From: Halichondria panicea
Taxonomy: Eukaryota; Porifera; Demospongiae; Suberitida; Halichondriidae
DNA: 64,000 nt
Assembly: GCF_963675165.1 (NCBI RefSeq)
Contig: NC_087384.1
Span: 2,750,501 to 2,814,500, forward strand
Direction: 5' to 3'
This document shows positions 9,401 through 21,400 of this stretch, piece by piece; positions within the stretch are counted from its first letter, which is position 1; each line of letters begins with the position of its first letter. Position numbers and translations under genes: made by a program. The notes under the pieces were generated by a model. That model was given only the letters and a program-made list of their open reading frames with translations, was not told where the DNA came from and ran no database searches.

Positions 9401-12400
9401 TTAGCTGACTCCGGGATCTTACTCCAGGAGCCATACTTCTGAGACTCCAGGCTTCTTTGCTGTGATCTAGACTCAGGACCTAGTCCACTTCATGTACCAC
9501 AAACTCCTCTCAATGTTTCAGCATGCCTCCAGTCTGGTTTAGTTTTATTGCTCCTTAGTTGCTGTGCTAGACAGCTCGGTCATACATCACTACATGCACT
9601 GCATTATATCACCTTTTGGTTTCTTTATAATCATGTCATCAGCTGAGGGTTTGCACTTTAGTGCTCTAGTTTTTTCAGTATTCATTGACATTGTTTATTG
9701 ACAAGAAATGCACTGAAAATTGTATATACTGTAATTATACTGAACTCCTATGTCATATACACCTATAAATTATGTATGTATACACTGATATAGTTAAAAA
9801 TCTTTGGTGCTTTGTGCTGTACATGGATGTATCTATATAAATATACTATATGTGTTATAAAAATACATGTTTGTAAGCTACATTTTTCAGCAAATACTAG
9901 ATTTAATCTAAAATGACGCAACTTCTTCTTGCAATGCTTGTGTGTGCGAATTTGCTACTATGTGTAAAGTGGCCATGGCATCATCTTGTTTTTCGTTGTA
10001 ATAGTTGAATGAAGTCACCGTAACAACGTAGCATTTCGTGAAGTCGGTGATTGTAAATGTTTCACTTGTTCCATAGCTTTCAATTTTGTGAAGTATCCTC
10101 CCACTACTTTGCTCTGATACTCGAACCTCGAAGTGATGCAATTCTTCTGAATTATGTATCGGTAGCTTCCAATCAACTTGTATTTTGTTTCTCCCGTGTG
10201 GTTCCCATCCTAGTTCCTCTGGAGCACCTGGGTATATGTCTGGGCTGGCTGTGAATTCCTCATCCGTTGTATCAATATTGTCATCAGCTCCTAATGCATA
10301 TGCCACAGCAACTGGACCAAGTAGCATGGGTGCTGTAGCAATTTGTGCTGCTACTTTAGCAATCTTGCTTATCTTGGTGGTAAAAACTTTAAACATTTTT
10401 GCATCCTCAAGTCTTTTCTTGTTATCATTGTAGGAGCTTACACTAACTGTGTAGATTTTTGAGGATTCCAGATTCTTAAAAACGGTTGAGTGTCCCAGGG
10501 TTCGTCGCACTTGTTTTACTTTGGGAAAATTCGCTTTTGCAATGTTTCTTTCAGCAGCTCTTATGGCATCACCTGCTCTTAATCTGACCATATAGAAATA
10601 TACCTCTTCAGGGTTTTTCTCTGGCTTTCTCCACCGAACCTTGACACTGTAACTACCTATTCTGTCAGCAAAAAGAGAAGAAGGTGCACCGGGGTGTATC
10701 TTGGGTGTAGTGGCATTCGTCTGTATTGGCTCACTGCGTTTGGTAGCCACGGCAATAACTTTGATGCAGTACTCTTGGCTAGAATACAAATTAGTGATTG
10801 CACATTCTTTTACGTCACTCTCAACACTAATAGGTTTGGTTATGCTGTGTCGGTGACTTTGGATTGCAGTGTATTCAATGCTATAGTGTGTAACAAGTGC
10901 TGGATGGATATCGGGTTCTTCCCATTTAACTTGTAATGTGTGAGCTGTGATGTCTGAGATCTGTATGTTCTTTGGTGGTCCTGGTTGTAGTTTTGAAACT
11001 GGTAACAAGAATGCATCACTTGAAGGGCTCCTTCCTTCACCATTTTTCATTCGAGTACGGAACCAGTAAGTTTTGATTTGTGGGTCTTGTAGATTAGGTA
11101 GGTCAATCGTTAGCATCGTATTTGTGTTTTGTACATGTTGCTCGGCTGTTAATACAACTTCTGAACATTTTGTTTCTTCGTTGTGCTCACATTCAATAAT
11201 CACTTTGTCTACGGGACTTCCGTTCATTTGTTCTTTTGTTAACATTTTGATCCCAATTTCAGCGAACAAAGGTTTCCCAATGATAGGCTCAACTGCTATT
11301 GGTTTAAGAGGTTTGTCTGGGGGAGCTCTCTTCGTTGTAGTCTCTAATGTAATACGATCTCCAACACGGATATTTATAGTTGTGTTATTCACAGCTTGTA
11401 CTCCAAATTGATATGTGGAGAATGGACTGAGATTATTTACTGTGGATTCATAAGACAGAGTTTTATTCAGCCTTTTTTGGTTCACTATGGCATTTTCTAG
11501 TATTGTCCAGTTATGATCCTCTGTATCTTTAATGAGCACCTCATAGTATTTAGCTGCATTTCCGTTTAGTCTTGGTACGTTCCATGTTAGCTTGACACTT
11601 CGAGCCTCTGTTGTGCATTCTAGTTTATCCGGGACACCAGGAGTCACATCACCAGAAGATAAACCGACTAAGTCACTTTCTTGACTCTTTCCTACCTCAT
11701 TGCTTAGACAAATACTGATCCAGCATGTCTCATCGATATTGACTTGTATTTGCTGCTCATGAGTATTGTTCTGTACCATTGCTTCATCTTTATTTTGCTC
11801 AATCTCATAGTCTTCTGTTAGTTTTGTAGCTGCTGTATCATAGCTGTAATAATTAACATGAAGCTGTGTAACTTCTCTCCCACTCTCTTCAACTGGGGGT
11901 AGATGTGCTTTCAATATGAATTCTCTTCCTCTTGGTATCACAATTGGTGGCCTTGGCTTTAGTGGTACAGAGGGTGGTGTGCGTACATTTAAAGTAGCTT
12001 CCTCAGACATTAGGCTCCCATTTTGAGCCTGTACAATGAATGTGTACTTAGTGTTGGGTCGAAGTTCAGACACAGTACATGAATATGTTTCTGCATTTGC
12101 TTTTTTAGAAGTCCATGTTGCTCCTTTAGCTTCTTTGTGCTGTATCTGGTACTGCTTTGATGCTAGTGGGTTAACTCTTGTTTTTTTCCAAGAAATTGTT
12201 ATAGAAGTACTTTTTGTTGTAACTGCTTTAAGCCCTTCTGGTGATCCAGGAAGCATGCTTTCAGGGTGTACCTCTATTGGTTGACTTGGTTCACTTCTTC
12301 CAATCGAATTGACAGTTACAACACGATAGCAACTAATAAAAGATTCGGTGAGATTGATTAATTCTACAGGCAAATTTACATTTGCTATATCACTCTGACT

Positions 12401-18400: not shown

Positions 18401-21400
18401 TAATTATGCATGCACCGTTATAAACACCACTAATTGTGCATGCATGGTTATCTCACAAGCTTGTCTAAAACATGTACTCTATTACTACTGCTAACCTTGA
18501 ATAGGAGGCACCTTCATTTCTATAACACAGTCTGAGTCGGGCTTAGATGCCATAGTGTATGATTCACTCTCATACGGTTTGCACGGCACACAAGGTATTC
18601 TCTTTGCTATTATATACTTTTATCAGGAGTGTTCATACACTTCATACACTCCTGCTTTTATATTCATTGTGGGAGGATTCCATGCAGGAATTCTTTTTAA
18701 TGGTATTCATATTCGCTATAAAGCTCCCCTACTGAGTTTACTATATACGGTAAAAAAGCTTAAAATTCCCATGGAAACACTGTATATCCCGTTGTTATTG
18801 TAAGCAAAATTTTATAGTTCAGAGTTTATAGTTCAGAATAATGGGGTAGCCTTAGTAGGGAGAAGGAGAGCCTGCATTGTAGCCAACTCATGTGTGTTTG
18901 TCGTGTTTTGCCAACAGTAAGTGACGCCAGTTTTTTTATAGCATGTGGTGGTGGCATTGCCCAGACCCTCAGTTAGTAACAGAACGATAGGAATAAAGGA
19001 TCTCTATGCTCCACTTCTCTTACTCTTTGTTCGTATGCTCGTTTCTTGATGTTTTCGTGCTTTGGATAGGTGGTGGATAGTGAGGACATTCGATTTGAAG
19101 GGGCATGTGGGTTCAATATACTCTGGCATCAAATCACGTTTTCTCAAAGCAGCTTCCCCAAAAGCCGTTTTCAGCGATGTCTAGATGAGCGCAATCTGTT
19201 GTTTTGGCAGAGGCACCAGAGGAGGGTTCACCTGTAATGGGTTGTAAGTCTGAGACATTGTGGCACACTCTTGACATCAGTTGAGCGGACATATCGCGAA
19301 TCTCATTGTGTTGGGTAGATGGGAATTCGTTTTTCAGAGTAAAATCCTTTCCACAGGCACAGGTGTTTATACATTTGCAAACATCCTTATTATTATACCG
19401 GTATTCGTATGACATTATGATCCTTGACTGATCTCTAAAGTTAGTATCCAATTTTCTGCTGATTCACAACGGTTTTCACTGACAAAACATTGTAGTGATA
19501 CAATCATATAACGTTTGGGCACTCACTCTCTTTGAATAAAGGTGATGTGTTGTGTACTTTAAATGCCAATTTTAGCCACTATGTTCGTAAAGTCATAATT
19601 ATGATCATTCATGTAGCGTTTTCGACTCACTTCTATTTATAAGTTTGTGTTGTGTACTCCACACATTTTGGCTAGCTAAATGCATACCTAGTTCACATAC
19701 AGGGTGTCATACATGGGGGGGACCCCCCCTCCTCAAATTTGCTTTCTCAGGTACTGATACAACTTAGCCAATCAAAACTCACCAGAATTCACCTAATTAA
19801 CAACAATTTTCCAGGGGCATCCCTGGGTTCCCCTAGCTGACGACACACTCTGTGTGCCCTATTTCCCCCTCTATTTCAAAATCCTGTAAAACAAACACCC
19901 TGACATAAATTATGTAGTAGTTTTTGGACTGTTTTAACACTGCCAGAGACAGCCTGCATTAATTCATGAACCTGCAGTTGCAGCTTTTTTGTACTCTAAA
20001 TGACAAATCACATTTATGACACTTTTACAATGCAAGTTGTGGACATGTTGCGGGATAGACAGCCTGCACTTACAACTGCATGTGTTTTCATTATATGTGG
20101 ATGGTCTGTATGTTCCATTAACTGAGCCACACCCATTCCCCACCCCCTTCAGTGGCTGGCATCTCTGTTAAGGAGCACCTTGAGGTGAACGTTGTCCCTC
20201 TCTCTGTCAGTCTCACGGCCAAGTTCTACCAAACTATGCAAGACTTCTTCTTCCCTAAAGCTGGTGATAGCGACCAGACGGACCGTGATCACGGCCACCT
20301 ATTTGCACCCTCAGGAATACAGCGTGAGTTTACGAACACACTGGAAGGTTTGTATCTGTATTGTACACTAACAAATCTAGTATCTATGGGTTGCAATAGT
20401 TCGCAGACAGTACTTATAGCTTACAAAGTATAGAATTATAATAGCCGTTACCTTATATATATGTATAAAGTTCACATAATCAATATCATAATCCACTACA
20501 CACACTCGTCTGAATCTCACACCCATACAGCCTCTCCAGCATTTGGCGAGCCTCCACAAGACAGAAGCAGTCCTCTCTTGTCTAGGGCCTCTTCTATTCG
20601 TAGCTCTGTCATGTCTGTCAACTCGTCTGTTACCGTTACAACAGCCACAAACCACTCCCCACCAACATCACCTGTGCCCAAAGAAGTACGTTCACTATGA
20701 TCTCATTGGTTGCCTCTTGGTTGCCTCAAAGTTAACAGTTATGTCATTGCATTCACAATTCTGAGCTATAGTATAGCGGGATATTAGCGTATTTAGAGCC
20801 TTAATCTGCAATCTGCAAAATTATTAATAGGCCATCATTATGAGCTGTACAAGAGTACTTAACTTTCGTAGTTTATGAAAATTACCCGCTATAAAATATA
20901 CTCTATTTGGGAAACAAGGCTATAATCAATCAATCCGCTACTAAAACAGTAATCAACTGATACATAGTTATGTGAACACTGGGATGTAATTTAGAGGTTA
21001 ATTGGTCCCAAACTATATTCATACAGCAATGATTTGTGTGGCCATGCAGATGGTGTTTGCAATGAATGTCCCTACACATCTTGTGAATGAAAAGAAAGAA
21101 TCCGTAGAGTGTTCTTTGGCTGGAGATTATTTTAGCTATCCTGTGTTTTACCAGATGGTATACAGTTCCCCTTATCCAATCACTGACACCATGACAATGT
21201 TTTCCTAGACTAGTACAGTGGAACCTCCCATAACATATCCTCCCATCAGAGGAAAACTTCTCTCTCTCTATAAGATGGTACGGATTGAAATCACTATAAT
21301 AATTATAAGTACACAAAAGCAACCTCCCACGAGTGGATCTTCTTGATTCTGGACAGCGGACAAGCTTTGTGCTCCCAAACTGACTATAAATAAAATCTGT

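Follow-up and report, generated by a model that had tools for sequence, protein, structure and literature searches.

On the minus strand of a 64,000-nucleotide stretch of the genome of the sponge Halichondria panicea (NC_087384.1, positions 2,750,501 to 2,814,500; the whole stretch is referred to below as the window) lies a gene, named A here, that joins a GTPase (G) domain of the guanylate-binding protein (GBP) type, through a short helical neck, to an arm of eleven fibronectin type III (FN3)-like domains. The genome holds five copies of this architecture, A to E, all of them open through exons 4 and 5, with conserved G-domain motifs and with constraint on every module; one of these copies, paralog B, shares the window with A. 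We consider it probable that the product is a GTPase whose assembly is driven by GTP, located in the cytosol or possibly in the nucleus, and that its effector end has been replaced by a titin-like arm. This reading is supported by the GBP-type G domain, the apparently GBP-like start of the neck, the titin-like character of the FN3 domains, the single plan followed at five loci and the constraint on the modules.

A sequence-only reading of the window had claimed that five exons splice in frame to 1783 codons, and this was reproduced: the joined minus-strand exons (18553-9908) give 1783 codons plus a stop (5352 nt) with no internal stop, and introns 1 to 4 (104, 53, 59 and 3078 nt) all follow the GT...AG rule. 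The parts of the gene are as follows.

18496..18553, minus strand: exon 1, with the start ATG at 18553; paralog B has a similar exon in the same phase
18323..18391, minus strand: exon 2 of the spliced model; paralog B has a similar exon
18177..18269, minus strand: exon 3, rich in Lys, Ser and Thr; the paralog B model is in frame without it
17667..18117, minus strand: exon 4, with the PKKRKL basic motif and the N-terminal half of the GBP-type G domain ([19 protein letters not shown])
14589..17666, minus strand: intron 4, 3078 nt, with an inverted-repeat element inside at 15587-16616
9908..14588, minus strand: exon 5, the second half of the G domain (MRD), the helical region, eleven FN3 domains and the stop

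The boundary of exon 4 falls within the G domain, and exon 5 runs in a single frame through the remaining half (including [10 protein letters not shown]), then the helical region and finally the FN3 array. Because these parts lie together in exon 5 without any change of frame, the fusion does not depend on any doubtful junction. The longest stop-free runs of the window measure 1580 and 1559 codons, compared with a maximum of 208 codons in 40 simulated windows matched to it in dinucleotide make-up, which rules out a chance open frame. When the boundary motifs of A were sought in the five loci, the exon-4/exon-5 boundary was identical in all of them and the joined frames remained open on both sides, across an intron 4 of 3078 to 7217 nt. 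The objection that the GTPase exon and the FN3 exon might belong to separate mRNAs loses most of its force, because exon 5 unites the MRD half with the FN3 domains in all five paralogs; for the same reason separate genes or a splice artefact were rejected, and the earlier claim of a single GBP-type GTPase/FN3 fusion gene stands.

Pfam, which the sequence-only reading had proposed to consult for the GBP, GBP_C and fn3 families, returned the GBP family (PF02263) at 3.3e-36 over residues 99-326 of the spliced protein. In phmmer searches of the PDB the best match was GBP2 (residues 97-385, 3.1e-31), followed by GBP1 and GBP5. Atlastins, which have a related G domain, appeared in the same search with a much weaker match, from 4e-7 compared with 3.1e-31 for GBP2, and judged by these E-values the G domain is nearer to GBPs than to atlastins. 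The nucleotide-binding motifs lie at residues 125 (GPYRTGKS), 153 (CTRGIW), 175 (DTEG) and 260 (MRD); the P-loop GPYRTGKS, the switch-I Thr (in PCT[RK]GIW), DTEG and MRD are invariant in all five paralogs. The MRD of A aligns with the LRD of GBP2, and the RD motif serves guanine recognition. Elsewhere in the genome, a separate multi-exon atlastin-like gene was seen at C15:4986059 (L011, C15:4985500-4988500); it carries the motif WRGGSERETTG, an atlastin hallmark.

Between the G domain and the arm lies a single further region.

13481..14095, minus strand: helical region of about 205 aa, residues 389-593, of which the start alone appears GBP-like

The match of the five-row profile in the PDB ends at residue 343 of GBP2, and the farthest single alignment places query residue 447 on residue 379 of one GBP5 chain. 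PF02841 (GBP_C) was not matched in protein A by the Pfam scan, and the GED (long helix 12 and helix 13) was matched neither by GBP_C nor by the PDB profile. In paralog B, positions 4-84 of the 297 of GBP_C were matched at 5.2e-5 with 23.2 bits, below the cut-off of 24.3. A genome-wide GBP_C search gave no match here and none in 14 control genomes either, so it is no proof of absence. In human GBP1 (hGBP1), the middle domain and the GED together take up about 280 residues, for which a region of about 205 residues is too short. Moreover, none of the five C-termini (EEVASF, EEISSL, TITTIL, TSAAEN, DSHTCT) has a CaaX box, a feature that only hGBP1, hGBP2 and hGBP5 carry and that is not required of all GBPs. 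The earlier description of a complete GBP of full vertebrate length could not be upheld: the 593 residues preceding the arm comprise an N-terminal extension of about 97 residues, the G domain and a short helical part, with neither GED nor CaaX recognised. The N-terminal half is better described as a GBP-type G domain followed by a short neck that appears GBP-like at its start.

The arm was delimited by domain cuts, Pfam and PDB profiles.

9911..13480, minus strand: FN3 arm, domains 1-11
13480-13208, minus strand: FN3-1
13207-12887, minus strand: FN3-2
12886-12590, minus strand: FN3-3
12589-12251, minus strand: FN3-4
12250-11966, minus strand: FN3-5
11965-11642, minus strand: FN3-6
11641-11321, minus strand: FN3-7
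11320-10985, minus strand: FN3-8
10984-10694, minus strand: FN3-9
10693-10232, minus strand: FN3-10, linker included
10231-9911, minus strand: FN3-11
10232..10363, minus strand: linker between FN3-10 and FN3-11, hydrophobic and then acidic, about residues 1633-1676

On the spliced protein, Pfam fn3 matched at 1e-65 in six stretches, and a Pfam FN3 match at 1017-1091 falls within domain 5. When ten of the eleven domains were scanned singly (domain 5 omitted; fn3 cut-off 25 bits), domains 1, 3, 7, 9 and 10 exceeded the cut-off, domains 11 and 4 reached 22.0 and 12.3 bits, and domains 2, 6 and 8 gave no fn3 match. Pairwise scores divide the domains into an odd class (1, 3, 5, 7, 9, 10, 11) and an even class (2, 4, 6, 8), with values of 39-97 for even-even, 41-120 for odd-odd and 22-43 for odd-even pairs, which overlap slightly; on the basis of this division the arm is read as a two-domain repeat, (a-b)x4-a-a-a. 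A profile of the even class (18 of 19 domains, one crossing a locus end being omitted) matched titin FN3 in the PDB at 1e-24, with shorter titin fragments from 1.2e-7 (two-domain 3lpw). The odd-class profile, made from 23 of 24 copies of domains 1, 3, 5, 7 and 9 (one at a locus end, plus domains 10 and 11, omitted), matched titin at 4.2e-80 and then many other FN3 proteins. The count of eleven FN3-like domains given by the sequence-only reading is supported by the Pfam and titin profiles, with the caveat that domains 2, 6 and 8 have no fn3 match of their own.

The second GBP-FN3 gene of the window has the same architecture and is absent from the sequence-only reading.

37910-47368, minus strand: paralog B, exons 47368-47320, 47222-47142, 47042-46586 and 42575-37910; 1750 aa, eleven FN3 domains

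Loci C and E lie elsewhere on the same contig (C8) and D lies on C11. After domain-border cuts A, B and E have eleven FN3 domains, C has nine and D has ten. When the whole genome (131 Mb, 39 contigs) was searched with the G domain plus helical region, 11 matches appeared, ten of them being exons 4 and 5 of the five loci and the last a weak one on C10. With the FN3 arm as query, 39 of 62 candidates were scored, and these contained 14 matches: six in the five loci, six on C7, which are stop-ridden fragments, and two weak ones on C3. At the search sensitivity used, this G domain and this arm thus appear together in five of five cases in this genome. The C10 match (926.5 kb; L004 789-1316) is another GBP-like G-domain exon, distinct from the five loci, with the P-loop GKFHSGKS and a GBP2 match at 7.5e-12. 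The C7 fragments, at six places between 5842734 and 7189891, are related to FN3-8 to FN3-10; as both of the two that were read (L008, L009) contain the same decayed stretch, a single fragment may have been duplicated to several places, perhaps through a mobile element.

The ratio of nonsynonymous to synonymous substitution (dN/dS) was calculated by the Nei-Gojobori method for all ten paralog pairs and along 43 scan windows. The pairs ranged over 0.24-0.44 in the G domain, 0.32-0.48 in the helical region and 0.42-0.52 in the FN3 arm; with all means below 0.55, each module is constrained on average. The mean exceeded 1 in a single scan window (1.18, at the linker between FN3-5 and FN3-6, with dN 0.26 and a low dS of 0.22); the other 42 means were at most 0.71, and those of the last four windows (0.60-0.71) place the end of the arm among the less constrained parts. 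An arm shaped by an arms race is unsupported by these values. The five-row tree contains no well-supported fork, so that sisterhood of the tandem copies A and B is without support.

Concerning location, A has no signal-like or hydrophobic N-terminus (best 19-residue mean -0.05), which makes extracellular binding unlikely and led us to reject an extracellular receptor as the principal interpretation. The same absence, taken with the titin-like FN3 domains, points to the cytosol or the nucleus, titin itself being a cytosolic rod. The suggestion of the sequence-only reading that the protein binds invading cells or symbionts is weakened by the lack both of overall diversifying selection in the arm and of a signal-like N-terminus.

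The protein would then belong to the dynamin superfamily and act as a GBP-type GTPase in the cytosol or possibly the nucleus. By analogy with GBPs, its G domain would bind GTP and dimerise, and the short helical neck would transmit the nucleotide-driven change. The eleven titin-like FN3 domains would take the place of the GED and the lipid-anchor end and form a rod for multivalent binding or spacing; as one FN3 domain measures 3.5-4 nm, the arm might reach about 40 nm if extended. Assembly driven by GTP would gather the arms so that they coat a target or form a scaffold on it, and a role in cell-autonomous defence can be envisaged. Several points speak against this reading. The switch-I Thr is preceded by Pro-Cys (PCT) in all five paralogs instead of the Ser-His (SHT) of GBP2, and GTP hydrolysis may be altered by this change, as the Ser of SHT is important for hydrolysis in hGBP1. 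Membrane coating of the vertebrate type might fail without a GED or a CaaX box. At the 5' end, counterparts of exons 1, 2 and 4 of A could be modelled in paralog B, exons 1-3 were modelled together in A alone, and a search of the stretch just 5' of exon 4 for ATGGCAT, the start motif of A, gave no hit in C, D or E. The arm itself varies, since C lacks FN3-8 and FN3-9 (in frame) and D lacks FN3-11, and the a and b profiles find no mutual match in hhalign (probability 0.5%, E 0.11). Structure prediction, also proposed by the sequence-only reading, gave two AlphaFold models from two-row alignments whose mean predicted local distance difference test scores (pLDDT; 34.4 and 47.0) are too poor for the neck or the arm. 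In the better one, residues 376-867 of exon 5 are modelled as beta strands, most of their block means being 50-80, in agreement with FN3, which proves little.

An unlikely alternative is a nuclear scaffold resembling plant GBPL3, in which PKKRKL would direct the protein to the nucleus and GTP-driven assembly with a multivalent arm would build a condensate or platform. A basic motif of the pattern K[KR]x[KR] stands ahead of the G domain, beside it, in four of the five paralogs; such a short motif is weak evidence, and paralog B reads PKQRKL, which does not fit the pattern. As described in a passage of a 2022 review, plant GBPLs have no prenylation motif and form assemblies in response to a stimulus (GDACs) that reprogramme host gene expression (PMC9005921). 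AtGBPL1/3 are, according to the same passage, GBP-like proteins that lack this motif and carry another kind of C-terminal extension; theirs is disordered, whereas here it consists of FN3 domains (PMC9005921).

It is likewise improbable that the protein is a structural or mechanical scaffold with no part in defence, in which the GTPase controls how a titin-like rod assembles in contractile or adhesive cells. Titin as the nearest PDB match of the FN3 domains and constraint along the arm would agree with this, but the several copies, the FN3 losses in two of five and the decayed fragments make birth-and-death evolution the likelier history. Titin also has I-set and protein-kinase domains, and the Pfam scans of A and B returned neither family; here, moreover, the arm follows a GTPase. 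The likeness to the FN3 arrays of the titin A-band consists in titin being the best PDB profile match for both FN3 classes.

Quite unlikely, in our estimation, is a membrane tether in which the linker between FN3-10 and FN3-11 inserts into a membrane in place of a CaaX box and dimers of the GTPase bridge two membranes, as in atlastin. All five paralogs do have, at the same place, a hydrophobic segment with prolines at intervals, whose best 19-residue mean is 1.63 in A and reaches 2.24 in D, but this mean is only 1.05-1.26 in B, C and E, a stretch within the G domain of A exceeds the linker (1.93), and this end of the protein is among the less constrained. Least credible by far is a gene-model artefact that wrongly joined two genes, for which the repeat element in intron 4 and a model read from sequence alone could be cited and which an exon 4 stopping in mid-G-domain, followed by an exon 5 with the MRD half and all FN3 domains, at each of the five loci and on two different contigs, largely refutes.

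Returning to the GTP-assembled GTPase with a titin-like arm, its nearest known relatives share only parts of the plan. Vertebrate GBP1, GBP2 and GBP5 have in common with it the G domain with the P-loop Arg, DTEG and RD and, apparently, the start of the helical part; they differ from it in that the sponge protein has an N-terminal extension of about 97 residues, a short neck, no recognisable GED or CaaX and eleven FN3 domains. Zebrafish Gbp4, as presented in a passage of the review, is likewise a GBP extended at its C-terminus, in that case by a CARD instead of a repeat arm, and is involved in inflammasome activation (PMC9005921). No GBP-FN3 protein was met among the papers listed by full-text searches of the open-access literature, eukaryotic proteomes being outside the search, which agrees with the earlier statement that no described fusion of this kind was known; public databases may contain predicted orthologs that have drawn no comment. 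The exon-4 profile confirmed no relative in viral contigs (63 candidate stretches) or in one-per-species prokaryote genomes (27). More tentatively, the family could represent an undescribed class of the animal dynamin superfamily, a GBP-type motor with a titin-like FN3 rod of two-domain repeats, in five members, that serves an early-branching animal as a GTP-switched multivalent scaffold for cell-autonomous recognition of microbes.

The presence and function of GBPs in invertebrates are called unclear in a passage of the 2022 review (PMC9005921). The genes described here offer a concrete case of GBP diversification outside vertebrates, with five copies that each pair a repeat arm with a G domain conserved among them. 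The GED and the lipid anchor are central to the membrane-anchoring model of vertebrate GBPs, and their apparent absence from a family under constraint suggests that both may be dispensable beside the G domain. In our assessment this is a real five-copy gene family of unusual architecture, with a mechanism that is plausible but unproved.

Further elements were observed in the vicinity. Intron 4 of A holds, at 15587-16616, about 1 kb enclosed by inverted arms (110 nt, 96%; 60 nt, 98%), and may preserve the remains of a Tc1-like transposase, an impression gained from reading. Between the two GBP-FN3 genes lies a fragment of a retroelement or transposon integrase (26843-27274, minus strand; rve 1.2e-11, Integrase_H2C2). 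A PHD finger frame was found at 24741-25364 (minus strand, 3.9e-9). At 3209-4366 (minus strand), a frame with ubiquitin-like and IBR domains, with no RING match listed, resembles parkin-like ligases.

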